DNA of 64,000 nucleotides from Oscillospiraceae bacterium. GTDB taxonomy: Bacteria > Bacillota > Clostridia > Oscillospirales > Acutalibacteraceae. Within the stretch, counting starts at the first letter, position 1; the number at the start of each line of letters is the position of its first letter. Shown here one piece after another: positions 27,116-58,013 of this stretch. The position numbers and the translations under genes were made by a program. The notes beneath the pieces were generated by a model, which was not told where the DNA came from, did no database searches, and worked only from the letters and a program-made list of their open reading frames with translations. Where the stretch lies: positions 55,434 to 119,433 of the forward strand of contig SVPV01000001.1 of the NCBI GenBank assembly GCA_015065725.1, read 5' to 3'.

Positions 27116-27144
27116 TTGACAGTAATAATATTTTTGTGTACAAT
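27116..27144 (+). promoter_or_regulatory. Promoter of first dockerin/metallophosphoesterase gene
   Basis: TTGACA, 17-nt spacer, TACAAT. Confidence 0.8.
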
Positions 27145-27193
27145 TAAAACAAAATAAAATAAAATGTCTTTTAATTTAGAAAGGGGTAAATCT

Positions 27194-30100
27194 ATGAAAA
27201 GAATTTTTTCACTAATTCTTTCGGTCTGCCTAATTGTGTGTGCGGCACCCATAACAAACGTTACCGCTACCTCGTGGACCATGACCGAAAAGACAGGTTA
27301 TAGTGAAGATGTAACAACACTAAAAGCCAATCAAGCATCGATTGATAAACTGCTGGAAAATGGCGAGGGTATTCTTTCGGGGTTGATTCCTCATACTTAT
27401 GATTATATTAATAATGAGGTAGATCAAACACCGAATTGGACCTACGCTACTGATGGGATTTTAAACGAGTTTTATCCTTGGACGGGACTTTATTCCTATG
27501 TGACCTTCCAGCTTAATGATGTTTACAAAATAAACGAATTCGGTTTGATTTTAAAAAATTCCACTTATAGAAACAGCTATGAGGTTTATATCGGTTCGGA
27601 TTATGACACCCTTTATAGCGGAACGCCTGTATATGTGTTTGACGGTACTGCCGAGGGCTACACCTCTTCAATGGGTCAGTATGTCAAGTTTACTGATGAC
27701 GGAACATATTCGTTGCCACAGGGTTCATTAATTGGTGTAAAGTTTACCGAATGTATGGACAGTTCGGGAGTTATTGCGACTAAAAACCGTGCTGTTCGTG
27801 TTGCCGAAATTTTTGCTAACGGTACCGCCACAAATACCGACGTTGAGGGTATTGGATATGATCCGTATTATGCCCGTTTCGGTGCAATAAGTGAAAATAA
27901 TATTCTAGCAAACGCTACACTGCATTCATATACTGGGTTTAATATATATTATGCTAGCAAGCCCTTAGAATATTTTGACGGTGATGCAAAAACCGAAGCA
28001 TACATATCGTGTACAGGCGAACACCCGACAATAACTTATTCTTTGCGTGCTAATACCGAAATTGATAGCTTTATGATGTATCAGACAGACCCTACTCTCC
28101 ATTCAAGCTATAGCGTTTATTTAGGCGATGATGCGGATACGCTTTATACCGATGCCAATAAAATATATTCGTGGGATGCTGCAGCAAGCACCGAAAAAAT
28201 ACAAGAATACTATTTTAACGCTAATCGAAAAACAGGAAGATACTTGGGTATTTATTTCGATGATATCGTTGCAAATTCGGATAATGTGGGTATTAGAATC
28301 GGTGAAGTGTTTATAGGAGGTGCTGAATTGAATTCAGAAACATATAACAGCACCCGTGATACAGTAGAGACACGTATTTCTGCCGATAACAACCTTTTAA
28401 AAGGCCGCACACCGACAGTTTCTATGGCTTATGTAACCTCTAAAGCTAAGTACGGTTGTTCAAGCGGTAAGAATTTTTCCTATTTGACCGACGGCAGTGT
28501 ATTAAAAACAGGTCACGCCGATATTTACGGATACGGTCATACATATGATGTGTTTGTTTATAGCTTGGGCGGTACTGCTTTAGTAGAGGGCTTTGAACTA
28601 TATAACAGAAGTGCGGCACAAAACACAAGCTATGAGGTTTACCTCTCTGACAGTCCAAACGGTATATTAGAGGGAAAAAATAAAATTTATTCTTATGACG
28701 GCTCAACAGATATAAGTGCCTCATATCGTTGTCAGTACGTGCATTTTGCTACACCTAAAACGGGTTCGTATATTGCGGTTAAGCTACTGGGGACCTACGG
28801 TGCAAATTCTTCTTCCAATAACTACAGAATTTCCGAAATTGCCGCCTACGGCACAGTTATTAATGCTCATCCTTATGAAATATATAGCACAAAAGGCATT
28901 AATGCTTATACCGAAAACAATCTTTTAAAGGATATTTTGGTTGAGCGTACAGGTAGCAACGGCGGAGACTCAGGCTGGGATGTTGCCTTAACCGACGGTG
29001 TTGTAAGTACCAAAGCTGATATTACTAACCTGTCGGGTGACGGTAGCACTTATTTAACTTGGGATTTAGGTTATACTGCGGTTTTTGATAGCTTTATTGT
29101 CGCACAGTATCAGAACTTTGCTACAGGATTTGAATACTATGTTTCGCACGAAAAAGATACCCTTTATAATGCGGAAAATCACGTCGCCACCTATAATATA
29201 ACCGAACTTTTCTCTCAATCATCTGAGAATTACGAAGAAACGGTTGTATTTAATGATGGCTCAAAACCGGTAGGAAGATATGTAGGCGTTCGTATCATTT
29301 ACCTTAGCGGAAATGAAACAAGACTTCGCTTATATGAAATTTCTGCTATCGGTGAAGCTGCACCGCCTGAGCTTATACCCCATAATTATAATGGCTTTGC
29401 TACAGGCTTTGAAGATGGTGACTCCATAAACGGTATCGGCGGTACTGCTTATAATCAGGCAGACAATACAGACACTAATGTTCACACAGGCTCTGCTTCC
29501 CGCGTTCATACTGTAGGTGCCGAGAGTGATGAATGGTCGGTAGACGATTATGCTTTGACAGCGTATAGAACCTACAATATTTCGTTCTGGTATAAGGCAG
29601 ATTCTGCTTCTGATTTAGGCTATGTTACACCGTCAACTGCTCAAAACGGAAATGTTTTTGGTAATTCAAACGGTGAATGGAAGCAATATACCGAAACAGT
29701 TACTGTTTTAGAGGATACAAATGTCAAATTAAACTTCTATTCCGCAGCAGATAGCGGTATACCTGCAGGTACTGCAGTTTATATTGACGATATTTCAATC
29801 GTTCCTGTAATAACAGTTATAAACGACGGTGTTGTAGGCGGAACGGGTACAGTTTCGGTTGATACGGTTGATGATGTTTTAACCGCAACCTTTACTGCAA
29901 ATGACGATTTTGCATATAACCTAGAGTATTGGGTTGATTTAGAGGGCAATATCCTCTCGGAAGACTCGGTTTATACCGTTTATAATCCTTGGCCTGGACT
30001 TACCTTAAAGCCTGTGTTTGAAAAACAACGCATGGTATTTGATTTTGAAAAGGAATTAGACTTTACTGCCGACGGTGCTTTGTGGTACACCCCCGAAACA

Positions 30101-32470
30101 GACGGATATACAGCAAGATATGTACATTCGGGTAACAAGAGTATTGAACAAACGGTTGTTTCAACCGAAGATAGTACATACTCTTTACCTGTAGATTTGT
30201 ATTCGGGTACTGAATATGAGGTTTCCTTTAGATATTTTCTACAGAATAGTGGCTCTACAGTAGATGCATCAGTTGGCTTAAACGGTACTGCTGCTAGTAC
30301 TGCAACACTTGCTTATGCTGACTCTTGGCAGACATATTCTTCAAAAGTAAATGCAACTGCCGATACTGATAGAATTACTATTGCTTTTGGCGGTGCCGAT
30401 ACGGTAGTTTATATTGATGATGTTTGTGTAGAACCTACAGATGATAGCGGTAAAATAACCGTTTCGGTAGGTGCTTGCGAGAATGGTACTGGTACTGTAA
30501 GTGACAGTAAGATTGTTTTAGGAAAACCTGTTATATTTACAGCAACCGCAAATAAGGATTACGTTTTCGATAAATGGATAAATGCAAATAACGAGACCGT
30601 TTCTAATGACCCCGTTTATGTTGCAATGGGTATCAGTGAGGATACTGTTTTAACACCTGTTTTCGTTCAGGTCCCTGAAGATACTGTAGAATACGGTTTT
30701 GAAACTGCAGTTGATGCTAATTACAGTGATTTAGCGGTTCGCTACACACCAAATACTGCATATTATGACAAGGCAAATGTCCATTGGGGTGAAAGCTCTC
30801 TGCGTTTGGACGGTTACGGTAGTTCCTACACCCATCCGGTAACCTTAAAAGCAGGCGGAAACTATAAGATATCCTTCTGGTACTTGTTACGTTCATCTGA
30901 TATCGGTACAATAACAATTAAGTTAGGTAACAATACATATAACGGTTGTTCTGCAAACACTTTATGGTATGAGCGTTATCTAGAAATTACACCTACAACC
31001 GATATGCAACTTACAATTGAGGTTTCTGGCGGTGCAGGTCCTGTTTATATTGATGATATCAGAGTTCTGCAGTATCATACCGCATCAATAGCAGATAGCT
31101 TGAACGCTTTAATCTCAATTCCCACAACTGAGCCTGCTCATAATGATACTGTTGAGGTTGCTGTTAAAAAGATAAACAGCAAAGGAAAGCACTTCTTTGG
31201 CTGGCTTAAAGATGGCGTAGTTACCGAGGCTGACAGTTATGTTAAAGAAATTACGGTGCTTGAAGATTTGACTATTGATGAAAATCTTATCGGCACACCT
31301 GTTTATGCTGACACATACGACACCAACTTCGACGGTAAATCAAACGTGCTTGATTTTATACACACCAGTAAAAAGATAGACTCTACCGCTGGTTATGTAG
31401 TTGGCAGTGATGTTGACAAATCAGGAAGTTTTGATGCTAATGACCTTACAGCAATTAAAAAATCCCTTTTAGGTATTCCATCGCAAAGTAAACGCGACGC
31501 ATATTTATCTCAGACAAAGATTGATATCGTTGGTTCAAGCGATGATTTAAACACTTGGATTTATCAGTTAGGCACTGACGGTGTTATGGTGCGTGAGGCA
31601 GTCTTTGATTCGGGTAAAAATGATAATAACCCCGTTGAAATCGTACAGATTTCGGATACGCATTTTAACTACCTTAACGATAGGGATTTTGAAGAAGCCA
31701 ATCCTACAGTTTTAAGCACCTATGAAAAGCGAGATTTCCAAAAAGACGCCTCATCGGTTGCTAATGCCGAAAAATGTATGGAATATGCAAGTTATTTTAA
31801 TGACCAGACGGTTATAACGGGTGATATATTGGATTATCTCTCATGGGGTTCAATTGAGTTGCTTCAAAAGGTTATTTGGGATAAAGACCCATTGGCACTG
31901 GTTACTCTTGGTAATCATGAGATGTTTATGCAAATGCAGGGCTTGGTAGCAGAAACAACCTCATTAGAGGCACGCTATAACAGATTAATAGATGCTTGGC
32001 GTCATGATGTTTACTATACCTCAAGAGTTATAGACGAAAAGGTAATGGTTATTCAAATGGATAATGCGTTAAGTCATTACTGGGACGGTCAGGAAGAAAA
32101 GCTTGCTGCTGATATACAAAAAGCACGGGAAAACGGCTATATGATTTTACTATTCCAGCATGTTCCGATTATGACTAATAACCCTGCTGAAACAAACCTT
32201 GCACCTATACGTCAAAACGGTGACGGTGCTTACAATTTCTATGCAAAGGGTGTAGGTGCCAACGCAAGCGGCGTAACAAAAGAGGTTTATAACCTTATAA
32301 TCTCTAATGCGGATGTAATTAAGGGTATATTTGCCGGACATTTCCATAGCGATTACTATACCGAAGTTATTGCAAAAAATAGTGATGGCACAGATGCTAT
32401 AATTCCGCAGTATATATTAACTGGTGCTGCTTACGATAAAGGTCACGTTCTTAAAATTACGGTTAATTAA
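27194..32470 (+). CDS. Large secreted multidomain protein: signal peptide, galactose-binding/discoidin-like modules, CBM-like jelly rolls, InlB-type repeats, dockerin-like domain, calcineurin-like metallophosphoesterase
   Basis: Signal MKRIFSLILSVCLIVCAAPITNVTA; dockerin-like DTNFDGKSNVLDF...DVDKSGSFDANDLTAIKKSLLG; MPE motifs QISDTHF, TGDILD, GNHEMF, FQHVP, GHFHSD; start at ATG 27194 after aaaggggtaaa. Confidence 0.85.
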   Translation: MKRIFSLILSVCLIVCAAPITNVTATSWTMTEKTGYSEDVTTLKANQASIDKLLENGEGILSGLIPHTYDYINNEVDQTPNWTYATDGILNEFYPWTGLYSYVTFQLNDVYKINEFGLILKNSTYRNSYEVYIGSDYDTLYSGTPVYVFDGTAEGYTSSMGQYVKFTDDGTYSLPQGSLIGVKFTECMDSSGVIATKNRAVRVAEIFANGTATNTDVEGIGYDPYYARFGAISENNILANATLHSYTGFNIYYASKPLEYFDGDAKTEAYISCTGEHPTITYSLRANTEIDSFMMYQTDPTLHSSYSVYLGDDADTLYTDANKIYSWDAAASTEKIQEYYFNANRKTGRYLGIYFDDIVANSDNVGIRIGEVFIGGAELNSETYNSTRDTVETRISADNNLLKGRTPTVSMAYVTSKAKYGCSSGKNFSYLTDGSVLKTGHADIYGYGHTYDVFVYSLGGTALVEGFELYNRSAAQNTSYEVYLSDSPNGILEGKNKIYSYDGSTDISASYRCQYVHFATPKTGSYIAVKLLGTYGANSSSNNYRISEIAAYGTVINAHPYEIYSTKGINAYTENNLLKDILVERTGSNGGDSGWDVALTDGVVSTKADITNLSGDGSTYLTWDLGYTAVFDSFIVAQYQNFATGFEYYVSHEKDTLYNAENHVATYNITELFSQSSENYEETVVFNDGSKPVGRYVGVRIIYLSGNETRLRLYEISAIGEAAPPELIPHNYNGFATGFEDGDSINGIGGTAYNQADNTDTNVHTGSASRVHTVGAESDEWSVDDYALTAYRTYNISFWYKADSASDLGYVTPSTAQNGNVFGNSNGEWKQYTETVTVLEDTNVKLNFYSAADSGIPAGTAVYIDDISIVPVITVINDGVVGGTGTVSVDTVDDVLTATFTANDDFAYNLEYWVDLEGNILSEDSVYTVYNPWPGLTLKPVFEKQRMVFDFEKELDFTADGALWYTPETDGYTARYVHSGNKSIEQTVVSTEDSTYSLPVDLYSGTEYEVSFRYFLQNSGSTVDASVGLNGTAASTATLAYADSWQTYSSKVNATADTDRITIAFGGADTVVYIDDVCVEPTDDSGKITVSVGACENGTGTVSDSKIVLGKPVIFTATANKDYVFDKWINANNETVSNDPVYVAMGISEDTVLTPVFVQVPEDTVEYGFETAVDANYSDLAVRYTPNTAYYDKANVHWGESSLRLDGYGSSYTHPVTLKAGGNYKISFWYLLRSSDIGTITIKLGNNTYNGCSANTLWYERYLEITPTTDMQLTIEVSGGAGPVYIDDIRVLQYHTASIADSLNALISIPTTEPAHNDTVEVAVKKINSKGKHFFGWLKDGVVTEADSYVKEITVLEDLTIDENLIGTPVYADTYDTNFDGKSNVLDFIHTSKKIDSTAGYVVGSDVDKSGSFDANDLTAIKKSLLGIPSQSKRDAYLSQTKIDIVGSSDDLNTWIYQLGTDGVMVREAVFDSGKNDNNPVEIVQISDTHFNYLNDRDFEEANPTVLSTYEKRDFQKDASSVANAEKCMEYASYFNDQTVITGDILDYLSWGSIELLQKVIWDKDPLALVTLGNHEMFMQMQGLVAETTSLEARYNRLIDAWRHDVYYTSRVIDEKVMVIQMDNALSHYWDGQEEKLAADIQKARENGYMILLFQHVPIMTNNPAETNLAPIRQNGDGAYNFYAKGVGANASGVTKEVYNLIISNADVIKGIFAGHFHSDYYTEVIAKNSDGTDAIIPQYILTGAAYDKGHVLKITVN

Positions 32471-32475
32471 ATTAC

Positions 32476-32506
32476 GGGTTCTGCTTCATAAAACGAGGCA
32501 GAACCC
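32476..32506 (+). terminator. Terminator of first paralog
   Basis: GGGTTCTGCTTC / GAGGCAGAACCC stem (one G-U pair). Confidence 0.7.
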
Positions 32507-32599
32507 ATACTTTATGCAATATTGTTTATAAAACAGTAAAAATAATGAATAAATGTAAAATTTTGCAAAGTGATCAGTACAAAATGTTGTAAACTTCCC

Positions 32600-32628
32600 T
32601 TGACAAGTATAACGTTTTTGTGTATAAT
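32600..32628 (+). promoter_or_regulatory. Promoter of second paralog
   Basis: TTGACA, 17-nt spacer, TATAAT (consensus); matches the layout at 27116-27144. Confidence 0.85.
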
Positions 32629-32672
32629 ATGGATACAATGAAAAGTTTTCGCTTTAGAAAGGGAGTAAATGT

Positions 32673-35600
32673 ATGAAAAGAATGAAAAAAGTTTTTTCAC
32701 TAATTCTTTCGGTCTGCTTAATTGTGTGTGCGGTTCCAATAACAAACGCCACCTTTATGACTATGGCTGAAAATGGAGGTACTGGAGTGGATACCGAAAC
32801 ATATAACAGTACACGTGCCGAGGTTGAAGCACGTATTTCTGCTGATAACAACCTCTTAAAAGGTCGCGAAGCGACCGTTGCTTTGTCACAGAAAACTACT
32901 GAGACAATTTACCGTTATTCAAAAAATTATAATAATAAATTTAGTTTTTTAACTGACGGTACATTAAGCACCGCTCATGCTGATATTAGCGAAGGCGATT
33001 GTACTTATAACGTATTGGTTTATAGTTTGGGCGGCACTGCTTCGGTAGAGGGTTTTGAACTCTTTAACAGAAATGCGGCACAAAACTCAAGCTATGAGGT
33101 TTACCTTTCTGACAGTCCAAACGGTATTTTAGCCGAAGAGAATAAAATTTATTCTTATGACGGCTCAACTGATATATCTGCATCAGACCGTTGTCAGTAC
33201 GTGCAATTTGCCACTGCTAAAACAGGCTCTTATGTTGCTATTAATCTTATTAAGACCTATGGTGCAGATTCTTCCACCAACAATTTCAGAATTTCTGAAA
33301 TTGCTGTTTACGGTACAATTACCGATGCGAATACTTATGAAATATACAGCACTGATGGTGCTAGTGCTTATACCGAAAACAACGTTTTAAAGGGTCGCTT
33401 GGTTGAACGCACAGGTAGTAGCGGCGGCGTTGACGGTTGGGATGTTGCCTTAACCGACGGTGATGTAAGCAATAAATACGACCTTTATAATGTGGGTGAC
33501 GGAAACACCTGCTTGACATGGGATTTAGGTTGTAATGCGGTTATTGATAGCTTTATTGTGGCACAGTATGGACACTTTGCTACAGGTCTTGAGTACTATG
33601 TTTCATACGATAAAGATACCCTTTATAATGTGGAAAATTACGTAGCTACATATAATATAACCGAAGACCTTTTCCCAGGAACATATTCACAATACGAAGA
33701 AAAGGTTGAGTTTAATGAAAACTCAAAACCGGAGGGAAGATATGTCGGCGTTCGTATTAGCTCCCTTAGCGGAGGCGAAACATCACTTCGCGTATATGAA
33801 ATTTCGGCTATAGGTTCTAAACTAGGTACCGAAATCTATAACAGCACACGTGCCGAGGTTGAAGCACGCATTTCTGCTGATAATAACCTTTTAAAAGGTC
33901 GCACAACGACCGTTGCTATGGCACATCAAACTTCTAATGATAAACATCTTTTTTCAAAAACATGGGCAAATTACCCCTATTTGACCGACGGTACATTAAG
34001 CAGCGGTCACGCTGATATTAGCGGAGGCGATCGTACCTTTGATGCTTTGGTTTACAGCTTAGGCGGCACTGCTTTGGTAGAGGGCTTTGAACTTTTTAAC
34101 CGTAATTATGCACAAAACACAAGCTATGAGGTTTACCTCTCTGACAGTCCGAACGGTATTTTAGCCGAAGAAAACAAAATTTATTCTTACGACGGTTCAA
34201 CAGATATAGATGCATCAGACCGTTGCCAGTATGTGCAATTTGCCGAAGCTAAAACAGGCTCGTATATTGCAGTTAAGCTTCTTAAAACATACGGTATGCA
34301 AACCGAATCTAACAATTACAGAATTTCTGAAATTGCCGCTTACGGTACAATTACAGATGCGAATTCTTATGAAATATATAGCACAAAAGGTGTTAATGCC
34401 TATACCGAAAACAACGTTTTAAACGGTCTTTTGGTTGAACGTACAGGTAGCAGCGGCGGAGCTGACGGTTGGGATGTTGCCTTAACCGACGGTGATGTAA
34501 GCAATAAATACGACCTTACAGGCATATCAAGTGACGGTAGTACCTGTTTAACATGGGATATAGGTTACACTGCGGTTATTGATAGCTTTATTGTAGCACA
34601 GTATCCTTTCTATGCTACAGGTGTTGAATACTACGTTTCGCACGATAAAGCCACCCTTTATAATGCGGAAAATCACGTAGCAACTTATGATATAACCGAC
34701 CTTGTAAGCGAGCAATACGAACCTTACGAAGAAAAGGTTGTGTTTAATGAAGACTCTAAACCTGTAGGAAGATATGTCGGTGTACGTATCGTTGATCTTG
34801 ACGGTGAAAGTTCACTTCGCATATACGAAATTTCTGCTATCGGTGAAGTTGCACCACCAGAACTTACACCCCATAATTATAAAGGCTTTGCTACAGGCTT
34901 TGAAGAGGGTGACTCCATAAGCGGTATCGGCGGTACTGCTTATAATCAGGCAGATAGTGCAGACACTAATGTTTACACAGGCTCAGCCTCCCGCGTTCAT
35001 ACAGTAGGGGAAGCGGGTGCTGAATGGACAGTAGACGATTATACCTTGACAGCTTATAGAACCTACAATATTTCCTTCTGGTATAAGGCAGATTCTGCTT
35101 CCAGTTTAGGCTATGTTACACCGTCAGCTACTCAAAACGGAAATGCTTTCGGAGCTTCAAACGGTGAATGGAAGCAGTATACCGAAACGGTTACCGTTTT
35201 AGAGGATACAAACCTTGCAATAAACTTCTATTCCGCAGCAGACAGCGGTATGTCAGAAGGCACAGTAATTTATATTGATGATATTTCGATTGTACCTACA
35301 ATAACGGTTATAAACGACGGTGTTATTGGCGGAACAGGTACAGTTTCACTTGCTACGGTTGATGATGTTTTAACCGCAACCTTTACTGCAAATGACGATT
35401 TTGCATATAATCTGGAGTATTGGGTTGATTTAGAGGGCAATATTATTTCAGAAGATTCAGTTTATACTGCTTATAATCCTTGGCCCGGTCTTACCTTAAA
35501 GCCGGTATTCGAAAAGCAAAAGTTAGCATTTGATTTTGAAAAGGAATTAGACTTTACTGCCGACGGTGCTTTGTGGTACACCCCCGAAACAGACGGATAT

Positions 35601-37973
35601 ACCGCAAGATACGTACATTCGGGCAATAAGAGTATTGAGCAAACAGTCGTTTCAACTAAAGAGAGTACCTATACTTTACCTGTAGATTTGTATTCAAGTA
35701 CTGAATACGAGGTTTCCTTTAGATACTTTGTACAGAAGAGTGGCTCTACAATAGAAGCATCGGTTGGCTTAAACGGTACTGCTGCTGATACTGCAACACT
35801 CGCTTATGCTGATAATTGGCAGACTTATTCCTCGAAAGTGAATGCAACTGCCAACACCGATAAAATTACTCTTGCTTTTGGCGGTGCCGATGCGGTAGTT
35901 TATATTGATGACGTTTGTGTAGAACCTGCAGATGATAGCGGTAAAATAACCGTTTCGGTAGGTGCTTGCGAGAACGGTACTGGTACTGTAAGTGACGGAA
36001 AGATTGTTTTAGGAAAACCTGTTATATTTACAGCAACCGCAAATAAGGATTACGTTTTCGATAAATGGGTAAATGCAAATAACGAGACCGTTTCTAATGA
36101 CCCCGTTTATGTTGCAACAGGTATCAGTGAAGACACTGTTTTAACACCTGTTTTCGTTCGGGTACCTGAAGCTACGGTAGAATACGGCTTTGAAACTGCA
36201 GTTGATGCTGACTATAGTGATTTAGCAGTTCGCTACACACCAGCCACAGCATATTATGACAAAGAAAATGTCCATTGGGGTGAAAGCTCTCTGCGTTTGG
36301 ACGGTTACGGCAGCTCGTACACCTATCCGTTAACCTTAAAAGCAGGCGGCAACTATAAAGTATCCTTCTGGTACTTGTTACGTTCATCTGATATCGCTAC
36401 AATAACAATTAAGTTAGGCGACAATACATATAACGGTTGTTCTGCAAACAGTTTATGGATAGAGCGTTATTTAGAAATTACTCCTACAACAGATACACAG
36501 CTTACAATTGAGGTTAGTGGCGGTGCAGGTCCTGTTTATATTGATGATATCAGGGTTTTGCAGTATCATACTGTATCAATAGCAGATAGCATTAGCGGTT
36601 TGGTTTCAGTTGATAAAATTGAGCCTGCTCATAATGATACTATTGAGGTTGCTTTCAAAAAGCAAAACAGTAAAGGACAATACTTCTTTGGTTGGCATAA
36701 AGACGGTGTTACTACCGAAGCTAATATCTATACTACAACAATTAAAGTAGATAAAGATTTAACTATTGATGAAACACTTATCGGCACACCTGTTTATGCA
36801 GACACATATGACACCGACGGCGACGGTAAAACAAACGTTCTTGACTTCATATACACCAGTAAAAAGATAGAGTCTACTGCTGATTATGTACTTGGCAGTG
36901 ATGTTGATAAATCAGGATGTCTTGATGCTAATGACCTTACATCAATTAAAAAGACCTTATTGGGTATTGCAACAAAGAGCGAACGAGACGCATATTTATC
37001 ACAGACAAAGATTGATATCGTTGGTTCGAGTGATGATTTAAACACTTGGGTTTATCAGTTAGGTACTGACGGTGTTATGGTACGTGAGGCAGTTATTGAT
37101 TCGGGTAGAAATGATAACAACCCCGTTGAAATCGTACAAATTTCTGATATTCATTTTACCTACTTTAACGAAAGAGATTTCAAAGAAGCTAATCCTACAG
37201 TTTTAAGTACCAGCGAAAAGCTAACCTTCCGAAAAGACGGTGAGTCTGCTCCTAATGCCGACAAATGTATGGAATATGCGAGCTATTTCAATGACCAAAC
37301 GGTTATAACGGGTGATACATTGAGTTCTCTTTCATGGGGTACGATTGAGTTACTTCAAAAGCATATTTGGGCTAAAGACCCATTGGCAATGGTTACTCTT
37401 GGTAATCATGAGATGTTTATGAAAATACAGGGCTTGGTAGAAGAAACAACCTCACTAGAGTCACGTTATAACCTATTAACAGAGGTTTGGCGTCACGATG
37501 TTTACTATACTTCAAGGGTTATAGACGAAAAGGTAATGGTTGTTCAAATGGATAATTCGTTAAATTATTACTGGGACGGCCAGCAAACAAAGCTTGCCGC
37601 TGACATAAAGAAAGCACGCGAAAACAATTATACCATTTTACTTTTCCAGCATGTTCCTATTATAACTAAAAACCCTGCTGAAACAAACCTTGCAGCCATA
37701 TATCAAAACGATGGTAATTTTGTGAATTTCTGTGATGGCGTAGATGGGTTGACCGTATTCCCTGACAGAACTAGTGTAACAACAGAGGTTTATGACCTTA
37801 TAACCTCTAACGCAGATGTAATTAAGGGTATATTCTGCGGACATTTACACAGCGATTACTATACCGAAGTTATTGCAAAGAATAACGATGGCACAGATGC
37901 TGTAATTCCGCAGTATGTATTGACCGGTGCTGCTTACGATAACGGTCACGTTCTTAAAATTACAGTTGATTAA
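32673..37973 (+). CDS. Second large secreted dockerin/metallophosphoesterase protein, tandem paralog of 27194-32470
   Basis: Same signal peptide and domain order; dockerin-like DTDGDGKTNVLDF...DVDKSGCLDANDLTSIKKTLLG; MPE QISDIHF, TGDTLS, GNHEMF, FQHVP, GHLHSD. Confidence 0.87.
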   Translation: MKRMKKVFSLILSVCLIVCAVPITNATFMTMAENGGTGVDTETYNSTRAEVEARISADNNLLKGREATVALSQKTTETIYRYSKNYNNKFSFLTDGTLSTAHADISEGDCTYNVLVYSLGGTASVEGFELFNRNAAQNSSYEVYLSDSPNGILAEENKIYSYDGSTDISASDRCQYVQFATAKTGSYVAINLIKTYGADSSTNNFRISEIAVYGTITDANTYEIYSTDGASAYTENNVLKGRLVERTGSSGGVDGWDVALTDGDVSNKYDLYNVGDGNTCLTWDLGCNAVIDSFIVAQYGHFATGLEYYVSYDKDTLYNVENYVATYNITEDLFPGTYSQYEEKVEFNENSKPEGRYVGVRISSLSGGETSLRVYEISAIGSKLGTEIYNSTRAEVEARISADNNLLKGRTTTVAMAHQTSNDKHLFSKTWANYPYLTDGTLSSGHADISGGDRTFDALVYSLGGTALVEGFELFNRNYAQNTSYEVYLSDSPNGILAEENKIYSYDGSTDIDASDRCQYVQFAEAKTGSYIAVKLLKTYGMQTESNNYRISEIAAYGTITDANSYEIYSTKGVNAYTENNVLNGLLVERTGSSGGADGWDVALTDGDVSNKYDLTGISSDGSTCLTWDIGYTAVIDSFIVAQYPFYATGVEYYVSHDKATLYNAENHVATYDITDLVSEQYEPYEEKVVFNEDSKPVGRYVGVRIVDLDGESSLRIYEISAIGEVAPPELTPHNYKGFATGFEEGDSISGIGGTAYNQADSADTNVYTGSASRVHTVGEAGAEWTVDDYTLTAYRTYNISFWYKADSASSLGYVTPSATQNGNAFGASNGEWKQYTETVTVLEDTNLAINFYSAADSGMSEGTVIYIDDISIVPTITVINDGVIGGTGTVSLATVDDVLTATFTANDDFAYNLEYWVDLEGNIISEDSVYTAYNPWPGLTLKPVFEKQKLAFDFEKELDFTADGALWYTPETDGYTARYVHSGNKSIEQTVVSTKESTYTLPVDLYSSTEYEVSFRYFVQKSGSTIEASVGLNGTAADTATLAYADNWQTYSSKVNATANTDKITLAFGGADAVVYIDDVCVEPADDSGKITVSVGACENGTGTVSDGKIVLGKPVIFTATANKDYVFDKWVNANNETVSNDPVYVATGISEDTVLTPVFVRVPEATVEYGFETAVDADYSDLAVRYTPATAYYDKENVHWGESSLRLDGYGSSYTYPLTLKAGGNYKVSFWYLLRSSDIATITIKLGDNTYNGCSANSLWIERYLEITPTTDTQLTIEVSGGAGPVYIDDIRVLQYHTVSIADSISGLVSVDKIEPAHNDTIEVAFKKQNSKGQYFFGWHKDGVTTEANIYTTTIKVDKDLTIDETLIGTPVYADTYDTDGDGKTNVLDFIYTSKKIESTADYVLGSDVDKSGCLDANDLTSIKKTLLGIATKSERDAYLSQTKIDIVGSSDDLNTWVYQLGTDGVMVREAVIDSGRNDNNPVEIVQISDIHFTYFNERDFKEANPTVLSTSEKLTFRKDGESAPNADKCMEYASYFNDQTVITGDTLSSLSWGTIELLQKHIWAKDPLAMVTLGNHEMFMKIQGLVEETTSLESRYNLLTEVWRHDVYYTSRVIDEKVMVVQMDNSLNYYWDGQQTKLAADIKKARENNYTILLFQHVPIITKNPAETNLAAIYQNDGNFVNFCDGVDGLTVFPDRTSVTTEVYDLITSNADVIKGIFCGHLHSDYYTEVIAKNNDGTDAVIPQYVLTGAAYDNGHVLKITVD
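32793..34862 (+). repeat. Two ~1,035-bp tandem intragenic repeats encoding paired galactose-binding-like modules
   Basis: TETYNSTRAEVEARISADNNLLKGR at codon 32793 recurs as TEIYNSTRAEVEARISADNNLLKGR at 33828 (offset 1035 bp = 345 codons); each unit ends RxYEISAIG. Confidence 0.85.
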
Positions 37974-39851: not shown

Positions 39852-39871
39852 ATATAGTTTAGGCAACTTGC

Positions 39872-39900
39872 TTGACATAAACTTTATATACAGGTATAAT
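39872..39900 (+). promoter_or_regulatory. Consensus promoter of serpin gene
   Basis: TTGACA, 17-nt spacer, TATAAT. Confidence 0.8.
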
Positions 39901-39942
39901 TATTACAATATAATTTTTATATTAAGTTATAAGGAGAAGTCT

Positions 39943-41316
39943 ATGCAAAATAAATTTAAGTTTTCGGTACCCGCTACGGTTTTGTTGGTAGCAGTTGTTA
40001 CGGTGGCTATAATTTTAGGCATAATTTTTATACCCAATTATAATAAAGAGAAGGAAAATTTAAGTTTTGGAAATCTAACTGCCTATGCGGTAAGCGAGGC
40101 AAAATACCCTGAAACTGTCGATTATCCCGATATTAAAAGTCCCAACTTTTATGAGGAAGAAACAGCGTGGGAGAATAGAAGACTGGAACTTTTAAAGGAT
40201 TATAACAGTAAAACTATGAATACCGATGACTTTTTTAAAAATAGTCTTCCAGTTTTTCTGTCTGGCAGTAAGGGTGAAAACAAGGTGTATTCACCTCTTA
40301 ACATGTATTTTGCACTCGGTATGTTGGCTGAAATCACCGACGAAAACTCTAGAAATGAAATTTTAAAGGCACTTTCAGTTAATGATATAGAAGAACTACG
40401 AAAAACCTCAAACGCACTTTTTAAAGCCAATTACTATAATGATAAAAGGGTAAAGAGTATTCTTGCAAATTCACTATGGCTTAATGATAAAGTGAAGTTT
40501 AATAAAGAAACACTCGAAAAAATTTCTGATGTTTATTACGCTTCCTCTTATAGCGGTGAAATGGGCAGTAAAGAGTTTGACGGTGCTATTGCAACTTGGA
40601 TAAATGAGAACACAAAGAATTTATTAAAAAACCAAACAGGTGACATTAAAACCACAAAATACACTATAATCTCACTTGTAAGTACCATATATTTTAAGGC
40701 ATGTTGGACAGATAAATTCAATGAAATCGCAACAGAAGAGCAGACCTTTTATGCAGAGAATGACGAATATGAGTGCGATTTTATGAATATGTCTCGAGGG
40801 GGTACGGTTTATTACGGAAAAGATTTCAGCAGTGCAAGGCTCTCGCTTGACGGTAGCGGATATATGTATTTTATATTGCCTGATAAAAATTCGTCGGTTG
40901 ATGAAATATTGCGTGGCGATGACCTAGTAAGAGTTATTTCCTCGGGTGATAGCTGGCAAAACAAAACGCAGGCTACTGTGAATTACTCTGTTCCGAAATT
41001 TGACGTTTCTGCTAGTATGGATTTAGAAGACGGGCTTAAAGAGCTTGGAATAAAGGATGTATTCAGCAGATTAGAGTCTGATTTTTCACCCCTTACCAGT
41101 GAAAAAAATCTAGCGGTTTCATCGGCACAGCACAGTGCTAGAGTAATGATTGATGAAGACGGTTGTACGGGTGCAGCTTATACTATGTTTGCAGTAGAAG
41201 GTATGTCGGCACCGCCACCAACCATAATAGATTTCACGCTTGACCGCCCCTTTATTTTTGCGGTAACCTCAAGCACAGGCGATACACTGTTTGCAGGGGT
41301 TGTAAACAAACCGTAA
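39943..41316 (+). CDS. Membrane-anchored serpin family protease inhibitor
   Basis: N-terminal TM helix; serpin body VYSPLNMYFALGMLAEIT, NSLWLN, STIYFKACWTDKF, VNYSVPKFDVSASMDLEDGLKELGI; DRPFIFAV serpin signature; start at ATG 39943 after aaggagaag. Confidence 0.9.
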   Translation: MQNKFKFSVPATVLLVAVVTVAIILGIIFIPNYNKEKENLSFGNLTAYAVSEAKYPETVDYPDIKSPNFYEEETAWENRRLELLKDYNSKTMNTDDFFKNSLPVFLSGSKGENKVYSPLNMYFALGMLAEITDENSRNEILKALSVNDIEELRKTSNALFKANYYNDKRVKSILANSLWLNDKVKFNKETLEKISDVYYASSYSGEMGSKEFDGAIATWINENTKNLLKNQTGDIKTTKYTIISLVSTIYFKACWTDKFNEIATEEQTFYAENDEYECDFMNMSRGGTVYYGKDFSSARLSLDGSGYMYFILPDKNSSVDEILRGDDLVRVISSGDSWQNKTQATVNYSVPKFDVSASMDLEDGLKELGIKDVFSRLESDFSPLTSEKNLAVSSAQHSARVMIDEDGCTGAAYTMFAVEGMSAPPPTIIDFTLDRPFIFAVTSSTGDTLFAGVVNKP

Positions 41317-46103: not shown

Positions 46104-48218
46104 ATGTTTAAGAAACTAAAGTTTATTGACTTGTTTGCTGGTATTGGCGGAATAAGATTAGGATTTGAACGTGCGGGTTGTGAATGTGTGTTTAGTTCGG
46201 AAATTGATAGACACGCTTGTGAAATGTACGAGGCAAATTATGGAGATAATCCTTATTGTGACATTACAAAACTTGATGCAAATGATATCCCAGACTTTGA
46301 TATATTATGTGCAGGTTTTCCGTGTCAATCCTTCTCTATTTGCGGAAGACAAAAAGGCTTTTATGATGAAATACGAGGTACGCTCTTCTTCGATATATGC
46401 AGATTGTTAGAAGCAAAGAAACCGTCGGCATTTATGTTGGAAAATGTTTTTAACCTAGAAAAACACGATAAAGGGAAAACTTTATCAGTTATGCTTGATG
46501 CCCTCAATTCTCTTGGTTATTCGGTGTCTTACAATGTTTTAAATGCTAGAGACTTTGGCGTTCCTCAAAACAGAGAGAGAATAATTATTGTAGGCAATAA
46601 AAAAGGTAGGTTTTTCGATTTTAAAAAACTACAAAAAAACAGGATATCTTCAATGCAAGGCTTTTTGGATAAAGATGGTGTTTTCGAAATATTGTCACCC
46701 GATTCCTATACAATACTTGATAATTCTTTAATAAAAACCCAAAATAAATCAGGGTTGAGATTTTGTGGCTACAGAAATAAAAAAATTAGAACTACAGGAG
46801 TTAGACCAGGAACCGAACATTTATCCAGAGTACATAAGCAACCCAACAGAATATATGATGCAGATGGAACACATCCCACATTGGCTTCACAAGAGTTTAG
46901 CGGTAGATATTTTATTAAAGTAGGTGATACTGTTCGTAAACTTACAATGAACGAATGTTATCGCTTTATGGGTTTCCCAAATAATTTTAAAAGGATAGGA
47001 ACAGACGCACAACTATATGCACGTATAGGAAATAGTGTTTGTGTTCCGATGATTGAGGCGGTTGCAAATCAAATTGTAAAACAATTATTTACAGAAGGAG
47101 TGTATGATATGAATTCAACAAATACTTTTCTCGAAAAAACTTATCAAGAAGCAATTACATTAAAGAGTTTGAGTTCTTTGAACCTATCAAACGAACAACT
47201 TTCTAGATTAGATGTAATAGCACAGAAAGAAGAAACTTTTAAAGGTGTTTTTACGGTTCTGTTTACAAGTTTAACCTATAAGGCATTACATCCTAACCAA
47301 GATGTAAGAAGACATCAAGCAAATATGTACGGTGGATATAGCGGAAGAAGCTTTGATACAAAATATATAACCCCTTTCTTAAAACAAAAGAGATTTCTTG
47401 GAGCAATGAAAGAATCTGGTTGGTTAACAAGAAGCCTTGAACAGAATATTCCCTACGGATTGGACTTTCCTGGAAAAATTCAGAGCAAACAAGTCAAGGA
47501 TGCTTTTTTAAAAACGCTTCACGATGTCGAAGAAAATGGTGTGGATGCAACCTCTCTTTTGAAAGGGTTAATCTATTACAGCAACAAATACAAGGGCGAT
47601 AAAAATGTAATTTTGATTAATCCGATTGAAAAGGAAACTAAAATTACAATAGAAGAAATAATTAGTGCTTTAAAACAACACTTTTATTTTAAATATAAAA
47701 GTCGAGGTGCTTCTATTCTTCCGGTAATTGCTCTTTATAGTATCTATGAGTGTATCACTGACGAGTTGAGGAGATTTGATGGTATGACTTTAGATGAAAA
47801 AGAATCTCACAATAGTTCTGACAGAAGTAGCGGCGAGACGGGCGATATTGTTGTCAGGGATGCTAACGGTGAAATTTACGAAGTAGTAGAAGTGAAGTTT
47901 GAAATTGCTGTAGATTCAATAATGATTGAGGATGCATATAAGAAGATTGCGAATAAACCAGTACAAAGATATTATATTTTAAGCACCAAAACACCTTGTG
48001 AAGATGAACTTGTGAAAATGAATGAAATTATTAGTCGCATAAGAGAAGAACATGGTTGTCAAGTAATTGTTAATGGTTTAATACCGACTATGAAATATTA
48101 TTTAAGATTACTTGATGATACTGACAAATTTGTTTCTAATTATATTAAAAATCTTTCTAATGATACTGAAATCAATTATGAGCATAAAATTGCATGGAAC
48201 ACCATTATGAATGCGTAA
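46104..48218 (+). CDS. C5-cytosine DNA methyltransferase fused to a PD-(D/E)xK-like type II restriction endonuclease
   Basis: N-terminal half has m5C motifs (DLFAGIGGIRLGFE, GFPCQSFS, MLENV, QNRERI, ARIGNSVCVP); C-terminal half (~370 aa) has GDIVVRDANGEIYEVVEVKFE. Confidence 0.85.
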   Translation: MFKKLKFIDLFAGIGGIRLGFERAGCECVFSSEIDRHACEMYEANYGDNPYCDITKLDANDIPDFDILCAGFPCQSFSICGRQKGFYDEIRGTLFFDICRLLEAKKPSAFMLENVFNLEKHDKGKTLSVMLDALNSLGYSVSYNVLNARDFGVPQNRERIIIVGNKKGRFFDFKKLQKNRISSMQGFLDKDGVFEILSPDSYTILDNSLIKTQNKSGLRFCGYRNKKIRTTGVRPGTEHLSRVHKQPNRIYDADGTHPTLASQEFSGRYFIKVGDTVRKLTMNECYRFMGFPNNFKRIGTDAQLYARIGNSVCVPMIEAVANQIVKQLFTEGVYDMNSTNTFLEKTYQEAITLKSLSSLNLSNEQLSRLDVIAQKEETFKGVFTVLFTSLTYKALHPNQDVRRHQANMYGGYSGRSFDTKYITPFLKQKRFLGAMKESGWLTRSLEQNIPYGLDFPGKIQSKQVKDAFLKTLHDVEENGVDATSLLKGLIYYSNKYKGDKNVILINPIEKETKITIEEIISALKQHFYFKYKSRGASILPVIALYSIYECITDELRRFDGMTLDEKESHNSSDRSSGETGDIVVRDANGEIYEVVEVKFEIAVDSIMIEDAYKKIANKPVQRYYILSTKTPCEDELVKMNEIISRIREEHGCQVIVNGLIPTMKYYLRLLDDTDKFVSNYIKNLSNDTEINYEHKIAWNTIMNA

Positions 48219-48314: not shown

Positions 48315-49262
48315 ATGTGTACGGCACTCACATATAAAACAGAAAATCACTATTTTGGCAGAAATTTAGATTTAGAGCGGGGATACGGTGAAGAAGTAGT
48401 TATTACTTCCCGTAATTATCCTTTAATGTTCCGTCATACCAAGGTTATAAAAAACCATTATGCACTAATTGGTACGGCGGCGGTAGTAGACGGATATCCG
48501 CTTTATTTTGAGGCAACAAACGAAGCGGGCGTTAGTATGGCGGGGCTTAACTTTCCGCAAAATGCCGTTTACTATGACTTAATGGAAAAAAAGACAAATA
48601 TTGCTTCGTTTGAACTGATACCGTATCTTTTAGGCACTGCCGACAGTATTGATAAAGTGAGGCAAATGCTTTCGAAAATTAATGTAGTAAATACAAGCTT
48701 TGCTGAAAATTTACCTGCTTCACCGCTTCATTGGATTATTGCTGACAAACAAGAATCGGTGGTTTTAGAGTGTACAAAAAACGGTATTACCCTATACGAT
48801 AATCCTTTTGGCGTGCTTACAAACAATCCGACCTTCGATTATCACCTTACAAATATAAATAATTATATGGGGCTTTTTGAGGGTGCGGCAGAAAATAAAC
48901 TTTGTCCCGAGCATCAGCTCAACAATTATAGTTTAGGGTTAGGGGCATTGGGGCTTCCCGGAGATTTTTCAAGCGGCTCGCGTTTTGTAAAAACCGTTTT
49001 TTTAAAGCAAAAATCGGTTTTATGCAGTAGCAATAAGGATAGTGTTAATCAATTTTTTCATATTTTAGATGCCGTTGCTATGCCAAAGGGATGTGTTATG
49101 ACTAGAAACGGCGAATATGAATACACACGATATTCCTGCTGTATAAATACAGATACAAAAGTTTTTTATTATAAAACTTATGATAATAGTACAATAAGAA
49201 ATGTAGGTATGTATTCTGTCGATTTAGACGGCGATAAACTGTATAATTATAAAATGGAATGA
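48315..49262 (+). CDS. Choloylglycine hydrolase family protein, probable bile salt hydrolase
   Basis: N-terminal MCTALTY (nucleophile Cys2), FGRNLDLE, EATNEAGVSMAGLNFP, ASPLHWIIADK, LTNNPTFDYHL, SSGSRFVKTVFLK. Confidence 0.9.
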   Translation: MCTALTYKTENHYFGRNLDLERGYGEEVVITSRNYPLMFRHTKVIKNHYALIGTAAVVDGYPLYFEATNEAGVSMAGLNFPQNAVYYDLMEKKTNIASFELIPYLLGTADSIDKVRQMLSKINVVNTSFAENLPASPLHWIIADKQESVVLECTKNGITLYDNPFGVLTNNPTFDYHLTNINNYMGLFEGAAENKLCPEHQLNNYSLGLGALGLPGDFSSGSRFVKTVFLKQKSVLCSSNKDSVNQFFHILDAVAMPKGCVMTRNGEYEYTRYSCCINTDTKVFYYKTYDNSTIRNVGMYSVDLDGDKLYNYKME

Positions 49263-54277: not shown

Positions 54278-55717
54278 ATGGAAAAGAAAAACGGATTTAG
54301 AAAATTCGGTATCCGCGATAGTGTAGCCTATGCGGCAGGCGATTTAGGCTGTAATATGAGTTTTGCACTTAAGGGTACCATGGCACTTTTCTGGACACAG
54401 GTTATGGGACTTGGACTTTACTATTCACTTCTTTTAGTAATAGTTCAGGTTTGGGACGCAATTAATGATCCGCTTATCGGCTCTATTATTGATGCTGACA
54501 GACGCAAATATAAACGCAACAAGTTTTTAACATATATTTGGTTTGGATCAATAGGTCTTATAGTTGGCGGTGCACTTTGCTTCCTTCCTTTCCCGGGTCT
54601 TCAAACATGGGCAAAAATTATAATCTTTATTTGCGGTTATATTATTTGGGATGCTTTTTATACAATAGCCAATGTTCCTTATGGCTCACTGCTTTCGCTT
54701 ATCTCTAAAGAACCAGCTGACCGTGCTTCTCTTTCGGCATGGCGTTCTATCGGTTCTATGTTAGGTAATATGGTACCTATGGTTATTCTTCCATTTATCA
54801 TTTATGAGGCTGACGGTAAAACTCTAAACGGACCGCGTGTTTTCCTTGCAGCACTTATTATGGGTGTGCTTGGTTTCTTCTGCTTCCAATTTATGATTAA
54901 AAACACCGAAATCCGTGTAGAAGAAAACGTTACTTTAAATGAAGAGCAACCGAAATTTAATGTGCTTGAAGCACTTAAAAACTTTGCTAAAAACCGTCCC
55001 GCTGTTGGTGCTACACTTGCAGCTATGGGTATGTTCATTGGTATGCAGGGTGCAGCTACCGCTGTTTCTGTTGTTTTCCAAATTTATTATAACAACGCAA
55101 AAATTTCGGGTATAGTTCAGCTTTTTGCAATGATTCCAATAGTAGTATTCACACCTTTAGCGCGAAAAATGGTTTCTAAATACGGTAAAAAGGAGCTTTC
55201 TGTTTTAGGTGCTATTTGTTCTATTATAGGCGGTATTGCTTTGTTTGTTATTACCCCACAAAATAAGAGCCTTGACCTTGTACTTTACATTTTGGCACAG
55301 CTTGTATATAGCCTTGGTCTTGGTATTTACTCTACAGTTTCTTGGGCTATGATGGGCGATGCCATTGACTATAACGAGTGGAAAACAGGCAAGAGAGAAG
55401 AGGGCGTTGTTTATTCACTTCATTCCTTCTTCCGTAAGCTAGCACAAGGAATCGGTCCTGCAGTAGCTTTAGTTATTATGTCAACTCTAGGCTATGTTAA
55501 TAATGCTGTTGATTCTAAAACAGGTGAAGCTTTTATCGATGTAGCACTTCTTTCCGACGCAGTAGCTTTAAAGCTTCGCATTTTGGTTGCAGTATTGTTC
55601 CTAGTAGCTGCTGTTATGCAGTTTGTAGGTCTTGCACTTATCTATAATCTTGATAAGAAAACACTTGAAAAAATGAATTCAGAGCTTGAGGCACGCAGAA
55701 CAATTGGTGCTGAATAA
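54278..55717 (+). CDS. GPH-type sugar:cation symporter (MFS)
   Basis: Multiple TM segments; YAAGDLGCNMSFALKGTMALFW, WDAINDPLIGSIIDADRRK, SVSWAMMGDAIDYNEWKTGKREEGVVYSLHSFFRK. Confidence 0.92.
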   Translation: MEKKNGFRKFGIRDSVAYAAGDLGCNMSFALKGTMALFWTQVMGLGLYYSLLLVIVQVWDAINDPLIGSIIDADRRKYKRNKFLTYIWFGSIGLIVGGALCFLPFPGLQTWAKIIIFICGYIIWDAFYTIANVPYGSLLSLISKEPADRASLSAWRSIGSMLGNMVPMVILPFIIYEADGKTLNGPRVFLAALIMGVLGFFCFQFMIKNTEIRVEENVTLNEEQPKFNVLEALKNFAKNRPAVGATLAAMGMFIGMQGAATAVSVVFQIYYNNAKISGIVQLFAMIPIVVFTPLARKMVSKYGKKELSVLGAICSIIGGIALFVITPQNKSLDLVLYILAQLVYSLGLGIYSTVSWAMMGDAIDYNEWKTGKREEGVVYSLHSFFRKLAQGIGPAVALVIMSTLGYVNNAVDSKTGEAFIDVALLSDAVALKLRILVAVLFLVAAVMQFVGLALIYNLDKKTLEKMNSELEARRTIGAE

Positions 55718-55742
55718 TTTTTGACTTTATAGGGAGAAACAT

Positions 55743-58013
55743 ATGAGAAATATTTTAAACATAAATGAGGGCTGGTTTTTTTCAAAAGAAGCCACAGGTG
55801 TTCCTACTACTGTAGGCGAGGAGTTTATAGGCGTAAATCTTCCTCATTCATGGAACGCTACCGACGGACAAGACGGCGGTAATGATTACGTTAGATGCAC
55901 CGCATATTATGCAAAAACAATATGTAAAAAGGATATGCCCGACGCTGACCGCTATTATCTTGAAATCCGCGGTGCAAACTCTTCGGCAGATGTTTATATA
56001 GACGGTAAGCATTTAGCACACCACGACGGTGGATATTCTACATGGCGTGTAGATATTACCGACTCATTAACCGACAATAGCTTGCTTGTAATATCGGTTA
56101 ATAATGAACCTAATGATTTCGTTTATCCTCAAATGGCAGACTTTACGTTCTATGGCGGTCTTTACCGTGATGTAAATATTATTGCCGTAAACAACACCCA
56201 TTTTGATTTGGATTATTATGGCACACCCGGTATTAAAATCACACCTGTAATTGACGGTGCTAACGCTAATGTAGAAATTGAAACCTATGTTACAAACGGG
56301 ACAGATAATAATCAAATCAAGTATACTGTTTATGATGCTGATAAAAACGTTGTAGCTACTACTGTTACAAAGGATACAAAATATAACTTTGTAATTGAGA
56401 ATGTTCATAAGTGGCATGGAAGACGTGACCCGTATCTTTACAGTGCTACTGCCGAGCTTTTAGACGGCGATAATGTTATTGATAACATTTCTTCTGATTT
56501 TGGTTGCCGTAGCTTCGAGATTGACCCCGATAACGGATTTATACTCAACGGCGAAGAGTATGCACTTCGTGGTGTTTCAAGACACCAAGATAGACTGGGT
56601 ATCGGTAACGCTTTGCTTCCTTGTCATCACGAGGAGGATATTGACTTAATTATGGAGGTCGGTGCTACTACAATCCGTCTTGCACACTATCAGCACGACC
56701 AGTATTTCTATGACCTTTGTGACCGCAAGGGACTTGTAATTTGGGCAGAAATTCCTTATATTTCAAAGCATCTTCCAAAGGGTAGAGAGAATACAATAAG
56801 TCAAATGAAAGAGCTTATAACCCAAAACTACAACCATCCTTCAATCGTTGTATGGGGACTTTCTAATGAGATTTCTATGAACGGCTCTGATGCTGACCTT
56901 ATCGATAACCATAATGTTCTTAATGATATGGTACACGATATGGATAAAACACGTCTTACCACTATTGCCGCAGTTTCTATGGCAAAGATTGATGACCCGT
57001 ATATTCATATTTCAGATGTTGTTTCCTATAACCATTACTTTGGTTGGTATGGCGGCGATACCTCAATGAACGGTCCTTGGTTTGATAATTTCCATGAAAA
57101 ATATCCTAAAACACCCATTGGTGTCAGCGAATACGGTTGCGAGGCACTTAATTGGCATACCTCAAACCCCGTTCAAGGCGACTATACCGAGGAATATCAG
57201 TCCTATTACCACGAGGAATTAATTAAGCAACTCTTTACACGTAAATATATCTGGGCAACACACGTTTGGAATATGTTTGACTTCGGTGCAGATGCACGTG
57301 CCGAGGGCGGTGAGAACGGTCAAAACCATAAAGGCCTTGTGACTATGGATAGAAAGTATAAAAAAGACTCTTTCTATGCCTATAAGGCATGGCTTTCAGA
57401 CGAGCCGTTTGTTCACCTATGCTCAAAGCGTTATGTTGACCGTGTTGAAGACGTAACAAAGGTTACTGTATATTCAAACTTGCCTGAGGTTGAGCTTTTT
57501 GCAAATGGCGAGAGCCTTGGCGTACAAAAGGCAGACGACCATTTCTTCCGCTTTGAAGTGAAGAATGTTGGTGAGACAACCTTAGTTGCTAAGGCAGGCG
57601 AGTTTACTGATGAGGGTAAAATCCGTAAGGTAGACGAAATGAACCAAGACTACATTCTTAAAGAAAAGGGTGCGGTGCTAAATTGGTTCGACGTTGAAGC
57701 TCCAGAGGGTAGATACAGCCTTAATGATAAAATTTCGGATATTATGAAGTCTACTCGCGGTAAGCTTTGGTTTGCAAAGCTAGGACTTAAGATTAAAAAG
57801 TCTATGTCGGCTAATAGTGAAAATAAAGGCAAGGGTAAAGGCAAAAAGACCGAGGCTATGGGCTTTGAAATTGGACCTGAAATGATGCAAATGATGGGCG
57901 GATTTACCGTGCTTCGTCTTACAAGCCTTATTGGTATGATGAATATCACCTTTACTAAGGAAGACCTGCTTAAGATGAATAAGCAGTTAAATAAAATTCG
58001 CAAACCTAAGTAG
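55743..58013 (+). CDS. Glycoside hydrolase family 2 protein (beta-galactosidase-like)
   Basis: LRGVSRHQDRLGIG, VVWGLSNEIS acid/base, GVSEYGCEA nucleophile; unusual Lys/Gly linker and C-terminal tail. Confidence 0.92.
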   Translation: MRNILNINEGWFFSKEATGVPTTVGEEFIGVNLPHSWNATDGQDGGNDYVRCTAYYAKTICKKDMPDADRYYLEIRGANSSADVYIDGKHLAHHDGGYSTWRVDITDSLTDNSLLVISVNNEPNDFVYPQMADFTFYGGLYRDVNIIAVNNTHFDLDYYGTPGIKITPVIDGANANVEIETYVTNGTDNNQIKYTVYDADKNVVATTVTKDTKYNFVIENVHKWHGRRDPYLYSATAELLDGDNVIDNISSDFGCRSFEIDPDNGFILNGEEYALRGVSRHQDRLGIGNALLPCHHEEDIDLIMEVGATTIRLAHYQHDQYFYDLCDRKGLVIWAEIPYISKHLPKGRENTISQMKELITQNYNHPSIVVWGLSNEISMNGSDADLIDNHNVLNDMVHDMDKTRLTTIAAVSMAKIDDPYIHISDVVSYNHYFGWYGGDTSMNGPWFDNFHEKYPKTPIGVSEYGCEALNWHTSNPVQGDYTEEYQSYYHEELIKQLFTRKYIWATHVWNMFDFGADARAEGGENGQNHKGLVTMDRKYKKDSFYAYKAWLSDEPFVHLCSKRYVDRVEDVTKVTVYSNLPEVELFANGESLGVQKADDHFFRFEVKNVGETTLVAKAGEFTDEGKIRKVDEMNQDYILKEKGAVLNWFDVEAPEGRYSLNDKISDIMKSTRGKLWFAKLGLKIKKSMSANSENKGKGKGKKTEAMGFEIGPEMMQMMGGFTVLRLTSLIGMMNITFTKEDLLKMNKQLNKIRKPK

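Follow-up and report, generated by a model that had tools for sequence, protein, structure and literature searches.

Tandem dockerin proteins with a predicted phosphodiesterase-type metallophosphoesterase domain in an Oscillospiraceae genome

The window analyzed here is a 64,000-nucleotide stretch of contig C13 from a 1.46-Mb Oscillospiraceae genome (97.6% complete, 22 contigs). Positions 27194–37973 are filled by two tandem open reading frames (ORFs), in keeping with the original prediction of two large ORFs. Each encodes, in order, a signal peptide, two pairs of discoidin-type modules, three CBM_4_9-type modules interspersed with InlB-like repeats, a dockerin, and, at the C-terminus, a metallophosphoesterase (MPE) domain. 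The features are as follows:

27116–27144, forward strand: promoter-like site of gene 1, TTGACA-17-TACAAT (11/12), conserved at gene 2
27194–32470, forward strand: gene 1 (P0001), a 1758-aa predicted secreted protein, its start backed by promoter and ribosome-binding site
27194–27268, forward strand: signal peptide of gene 1, MKRIFSLILSVCLIVCAAPITNVTA, by sequence inspection
27305–28327, forward strand: discoidin-type pair 1 of gene 1 (res. 38–378), divergent, 27% identical to pair 2
28328–29377, forward strand: discoidin-type pair 2 of gene 1 (res. 379–728), from a low-confidence model and repeats
29378–29809, forward strand: CBM_4_9 module 1 of gene 1 (res. 729–872), Pfam
30032–30448, forward strand: CBM_4_9-type module 2 of gene 1 (res. 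947–1085), Pfam
30458–30664, forward strand: InlB-type repeat of gene 1 (Flg_new_2, res. 1089–1157, 31.1 bits)
30674–31072, forward strand: CBM_4_9-type module 3 of gene 1 (res. 1161–1293), Pfam
31316–31471, forward strand: dockerin of gene 1, two Ca-binding loops (res. 1375–1426), Pfam and profiles
31490–32467, forward strand: MPE domain of gene 1, by Pfam, motif alignment, model, and fold search
32476–32506, forward strand: terminator-like hairpin directly after gene 1
32600–32628, forward strand: promoter-like site of gene 2, TTGACA-17-TATAAT (12/12)
32673–37973, forward strand: gene 2 (P0002), a 1766-aa tandem duplicate of gene 1
32784–33833, forward strand: discoidin-type pair 1 of gene 2, 70% identical to gene 1 pair 2
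33834–34862, forward strand: discoidin-type pair 2 of gene 2, 74% identical to gene 1 pair 2
36243–36467, forward strand: CBM_4_9 module of gene 2 (best stretch), Pfam
36807–36962, forward strand: dockerin of gene 2, Pfam and profile
36981–37970, forward strand: MPE domain of gene 2, by Pfam and motif alignment
58093–58680, reverse strand: single-cohesin protein with an N-terminal membrane segment; cohesin at 58162–58485, 57.4 bits in Pfam

Both promoter-like sites are sigma-70-like and lie a short way 5' of the start of each gene. Because a near-consensus promoter and a ribosome-binding site (AGAAAGGGG) precede position 27194, and both elements are conserved at gene 2, we place the start of gene 1 at 27194, as proposed earlier; the longer ORF starting at 27164 was rejected on these grounds. 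The two proteins are 70% identical overall, with identity unevenly distributed along the chain. It amounts to 24–26% between the first discoidin pairs and 73% between the second, rises to 82–95% from the CBM modules through the second InlB-like repeat, and then drops to 68% for the third such repeat; the dockerins are 77% and the MPE domains 79% identical. With the two MPE domains placed as sisters with full support in a tree of 25 such domains, the gene pair is, on this phylogeny, a tandem duplication. A third MPE paralogue in the genome (C17:56970–57986), a lipoprotein without dockerin or CBM, falls in a separate well-supported clade.

The genes flanking the pair are housekeeping (IF-2, TruB, RibF, YebC, Dus, UvrD) and give no hint of a substrate. 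An operon with these neighbors was rejected as a substrate clue, since both genes are separately promoted and those around them are housekeeping. Elsewhere in the window, the serpin gene at 39868–41313 was considered as a dockerin-serpin like that of Ruminococcus flavefaciens and rejected; its product has a membrane segment at the N-terminus but lacks a dockerin. A 704-aa C5-cytosine DNA methylase (46104–48218) has a long C-terminal part without an assigned domain, and a choloylglycine hydrolase family gene (48315–49259), of the bile-salt hydrolase or penicillin-acylase type, adjoins an MFS transporter.

The N-terminal two thirds of both proteins consist of putative binding modules behind export-type N-termini. 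The signal peptides of both were assigned by eye. CBM_4_9, Flg_new_2 (InlB-type), and Metallophos score above the Pfam cut-off in both whole proteins, bearing out the CBM-like and InlB-type modules of the original prediction; of the InlB-type modules, Pfam scores one in each protein, and two further copies were recognized by eye. The modules first described as galactose-binding-like fare less evenly. They give no match in Pfam, and the likeness comes from one pair, whose low-confidence model (pLDDT 57) resembles tandem F5/8 type C (jelly-roll) folds (E about 1e-9), with matches to fucolectin, DDR1, the factor VIII C1–C2 domains, and CBM32. A single module measures ~170 residues, and the fold of the divergent first pair of gene 1 was assigned via its homologues.

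The mid-chain segment is, by its sequence, a genuine dockerin, as the original reading of a double EF-hand had it. In searches with the whole proteins, Dockerin_1 scores 18.2 and 17.7 bits, below the Pfam cut-off of 22.9; the isolated segments score above it, with 33.1 bits (E 6.6e-8) for 31286–31489 and 28.3 bits (E 2e-6) for 36777–36980. A profile of the genome's 11 other dockerins, which excludes both window dockerins, scores them at 29.0 and 27.7 bits, against a best score of 10.0 bits among 2000 shuffled copies. A single-sequence search reaches C. thermocellum dockerins at E 0.005–0.013, and an eight-dockerin profile that includes both window dockerins matches solved dockerins at E 7e-13. 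Dockerin similarity is thus found at 31290–31482, where its absence would have spoken against the idea. Two F-hand loops follow the type I pattern (PF00404; D-x-N/D-x-D-G-x-x-N/D-x-x-D), with Ser rather than Asp at position 5 of the second loop. The AlphaFold model leaves the dockerin below pLDDT 50, its helices not clearly formed, so the fold is assigned from sequence.

The C-terminal MPE domain is modeled by AlphaFold at a pLDDT around 90 across most of its length. The D-x-H, GD, GNHE, H, and GH-x-H motifs of PF00149 are intact in both copies, and every ligand whose loss had been named as a possible objection is kept; in protein 1, the metal ligands and catalytic His are D1488, H1490, D1544, N1574, H1575, H1656, H1716, and H1718. 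The single sequence has no direct match in the PDB, a profile matches only weakly, and NCBIfam offers no informative family. Fold ranks 1–20 comprise SMPDL3A/B, Lmo2642, GpdQ, Rv0805, and acid sphingomyelinase (ASMase), at 12–17% identity and modest TM-scores of about 0.4 by query length, a similarity that places the domain with the Class III phosphodiesterase branch (GpdQ/ASMase-like). Nearly all of these proteins are phosphodiesterases and not phosphomonoesterases; GpdQ is a glycerophosphodiesterase. Because the nearest folds are phosphodiesterases, the modeled structure favors a phosphodiesterase over a phosphomonoesterase; of the "phosphatase or phosphodiesterase" first suggested, the fold points to the second.

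The genome encodes at least 13 dockerin proteins (12 and gene 1), on contigs C4, C5, C13, C17, C20, and C21, as counted by a Pfam search in which weak copies may be missed. In 11 of the 13, including both MPE proteins, the dockerin pairs one half of the type N-V/I-L-D-F/Y-I with one of the type N-D-L-x-x-I/L-K-K-x-L-L, although the letters vary; this shared asymmetric pair is as expected for one recognition group. The first kind of half leads in six and the second in five; that the NILDFI and NDLxxIKKxLL halves occur in either order could be relevant to whether cohesin binding is single- or dual-mode. Domains of the remaining dockerin proteins are of the BspA-type LRR, WG, RCC1, discoidin, SGNH, transglutaminase, hydrazine-synthase-alpha-like, and SagB-like glucosaminidase types. 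A SagB-like glucosaminidase domain is found on two of these proteins, two SGNH domains on one, and a transglutaminase core on one. The hydrazine-synthase-alpha-like domain (PF18582) lies in the middle of a 2223-aa dockerin protein (L067:11045–17713, C21) that also has cytochrome-like CxxCH motifs and discoidin modules.

Four cohesin proteins are present, with one recognized cohesin each. The cohesin in the window, expected at 58093–58680, was recovered there, and its membrane-anchored protein is a candidate docking partner of the window dockerins. The second is secreted and adjoins the transglutaminase-dockerin gene (C17), the third is an LRR-cohesin-dockerin adaptor (C21), and the fourth (C13:37530–39041) is weak, membrane-anchored, and adjoins a glucosaminidase-dockerin gene. 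Directly before the convergent cohesin gene of the window lie a sugar MFS transporter and a GH2 enzyme (54278–58010), with an AraC-type regulator on the other side. Among the genomes of the genus, 69 of 70 have dockerins and 65 of 70 have cohesins; the window cohesin has relatives in 45 of 70, several of which carry a full-length one.

This inventory does not bear out the fibre-degrading, cellulosome-like setting originally envisaged. No fibre-degrading glycoside hydrolase was recognized on any of the 11 remaining dockerin proteins, neither GH9 nor GH5 was detected in the genome, and there is no multi-cohesin scaffoldin, the four cohesin proteins having a single cohesin each. A GH48 search of the genome carries no weight, since its controls gave no match either. 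Cellulosome membership was therefore rejected. Because the 11 other dockerin proteins lack a recognizable fibre-degrading enzyme, the system is classed from its gene content as a non-cellulosomal cohesin–dockerin system that includes a putative phosphodiesterase.

Relatives of the MPE domain were collected with a four-sequence alignment, a nine-sequence one being too diverse. Close relatives (E below 1e-30, among 149) occur in six genomes of the genus. In one of these (G061), the MPE domain of two proteins is immediately preceded by a dockerin, scoring 23.2 and 25.0 bits where shuffled copies reach no more than 6.0. In another (G045), both MPE genes lack a dockerin, and a secreted 225-aa dockerin gene lies immediately upstream of each (Pfam, 39.7 and 43.7 bits). 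The predicted dockerin–MPE linkage thus recurs in the genus, fused or adjacent. Two G045 homologues are single chains with both SGNH and MPE, recognized in one by Pfam and in the other by eye; at their paralogous loci (L058, L060), a small secreted dockerin gene accompanies the SGNH-MPE giant, and the gene downstream of the giant is GH3-like by eye. Dockerins suggested by eye in a G055 homologue and in a small gene upstream of a G022 homologue were discarded, as neither profile nor Pfam gave support.

Outside the genus, most MPE relatives are fused to other repeats or stand alone, without a dockerin, so the enzyme family can do without docking. Named carriers of the family are MAGs of gut and hindgut Clostridia; they include Oscillospiraceae bacterium SIG695, Candidatus Ornithomonoglobus, and Clostridia from water-buffalo colon and horse feces. 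The horse-feces record (JAKSQF010000018, L081) encodes the same 1252-codon ORF as contig C90 of G061. No relatives were found in viral contigs. Some members have damaged motifs, such as GSHE for GNHE on contig C193 of G061, and the family may for this reason include inactive copies. The window MPEs are nearer to proteins from other families of the class than to those of G061, which suggests patchy inheritance; the tree is poorly resolved at depth, so we claim no number of origins. Elsewhere, MPE genes adjoin genes of GH10, GH29, GH20, GH106, trehalase/MGH1-like, and ADP-ribosylglycohydrolase families.

We judge the chances to be about even that the pair works as glycan-binding, cohesin-docked surface phosphodiesterases acting in or near the bound glycan. 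The discoidin, CBM_4_9, and InlB modules would bind glycans, and the dockerin would plug the protein, in a Ca-dependent manner, into a cell-surface cohesin, most simply the membrane-anchored 58093–58680 protein or the secreted C17 cohesin. The C-terminal two-metal enzyme would then cut phosphodiester bonds in or near the glycan; possible targets are phosphoglycans, glycerol- or ribitol-phosphate polymers, and other cell-envelope or host phosphodiesters. Because MPE genes elsewhere adjoin glycoside hydrolase-type genes, while the window flanks are housekeeping, we favor a glycan-linked phosphodiester as the substrate.

Other readings share parts of this evidence. The docked glucosaminidases, SGNH esterase, and transglutaminase core, the rank of GpdQ among the best MPE folds, and the SGNH-MPE chains of G045 would all suit a complex for cell-wall remodeling or attack on bacterial envelopes, with the MPE as a teichoic-acid or glycerophosphate phosphodiesterase. 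Discoidin and CBM_4_9 modules, however, more often bind glycans that lie outside the wall, and Pfam found no LysM, SH3, or SLH wall-binding module in the MPE proteins; we consider this reading unlikely. The top folds (SMPDL3A, Rv0805, Lmo2642, GpdQ) and the stand-alone lipoprotein paralogue without binding modules would fit a scavenger of nutrients or signals that hydrolyzes small extracellular phosphodiesters (nucleotides, cyclic nucleotides, glycerophosphodiesters, or lipid head groups), its modules serving only to keep the cell attached to mucus or to particles of food. For a soluble substrate, a chain with at least seven binding modules would be costly, and MPE relatives often adjoin glycoside hydrolase genes, which makes such a role improbable.

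The docking step itself would fall if the double EF-hand were a Ca-stabilized spacer within the chain, as its position directly before the catalytic domain, weak whole-protein Pfam score, and poor modeling might suggest. Against this stand the score of the isolated segment above the dockerin cut-off, the half-type signature common to the genome's dockerins, the retention of the segment at the same place in G061, and the presence of cohesins in the genome, and we regard a mere spacer as very unlikely. A bolder form of the docked-phosphodiesterase reading, which we offer tentatively and consider unlikely, is a "phosphoglycan" counterpart of the cellulosome: a cohesin–dockerin surface assembly whose cargo would be envelope- or glycan-modifying enzymes in place of glycosidases, the docked phosphodiesterase removing groups that are phosphodiester-linked to teichoic acids or to the bound glycans.

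If docking and activity hold true, cohesin–dockerin assembly would bring phosphodiester chemistry to a surface, beyond glycosidases, proteases, and esterases. This would widen the purpose of dockerin systems for gut bacteria whose genomes are very small and provide a tractable glycan-guided phosphodiesterase. The case also shows that the co-occurrence of cohesins and dockerins in one genome is not enough to infer breakdown of fibre or mucin.

The catalytic domain shares with the calcineurin-like Class III phosphodiesterases (GpdQ, Rv0805, Lmo2642, SMPDL3A/B, ASMase) the PF00149 fold, seven metal ligands, and the catalytic His. It differs from them in its low identity (12–17%), in a lineage-specific insertion after D-x-H, and in its fusion to binding modules and a dockerin. 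The MPE fusions of gut Clostridia MAGs likewise have the domain as the C-terminal part of a large secreted protein, at 49–55% (L074–L080, L084) and 34–38% (G045) identity to the window domains, but have no in-chain dockerin and carry beta-helix-like repeat or SGNH modules at the N-terminus.

Calling the locus an undescribed system, as was first done, goes too far, for dockerins on non-CAZyme proteins and dockerin complexes of a non-cellulosic kind have been described before. About 85 of 212 dockerin proteins of B. cellulosolvens are non-CAZyme (PMC5590126), and Ruminococcus flavefaciens FD-1 has such proteins with transglutaminase, LRR, serpin, and peptidase domains (PMC2930009). The latter, like ours, are secreted modular proteins that join a two-loop dockerin to a non-glycosidase partner, and LRR and transglutaminase dockerin proteins occur in the window genome too; the FD-1 survey mentions no phosphoesterase, and that organism docks many fibre-degrading enzymes (PMC2930009). 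The mucinolysome of Limousia, a mucin-degrading cohesin–dockerin complex (PMC12997984), resembles the present system, as do other non-cellulosic complexes, in using cohesin–dockerin assembly in gut Clostridia for a purpose other than cellulose. Its docked proteins are mostly glycoside hydrolases (PMC12997984), whereas the window genome has no recognized fibre- or mucin-degrading glycoside hydrolase on its dockerin proteins and has a dockerin-bearing putative phosphodiesterase. Among the open-access papers searched, none brings together a dockerin and a metallophosphoesterase or calcineurin-like phosphoesterase, although database annotations with this architecture may exist. What appears to be new here is the joining of a dockerin to a phosphodiesterase-type MPE and sugar-binding modules, which would extend the assembly principle of fibre degradation to phosphate chemistry.
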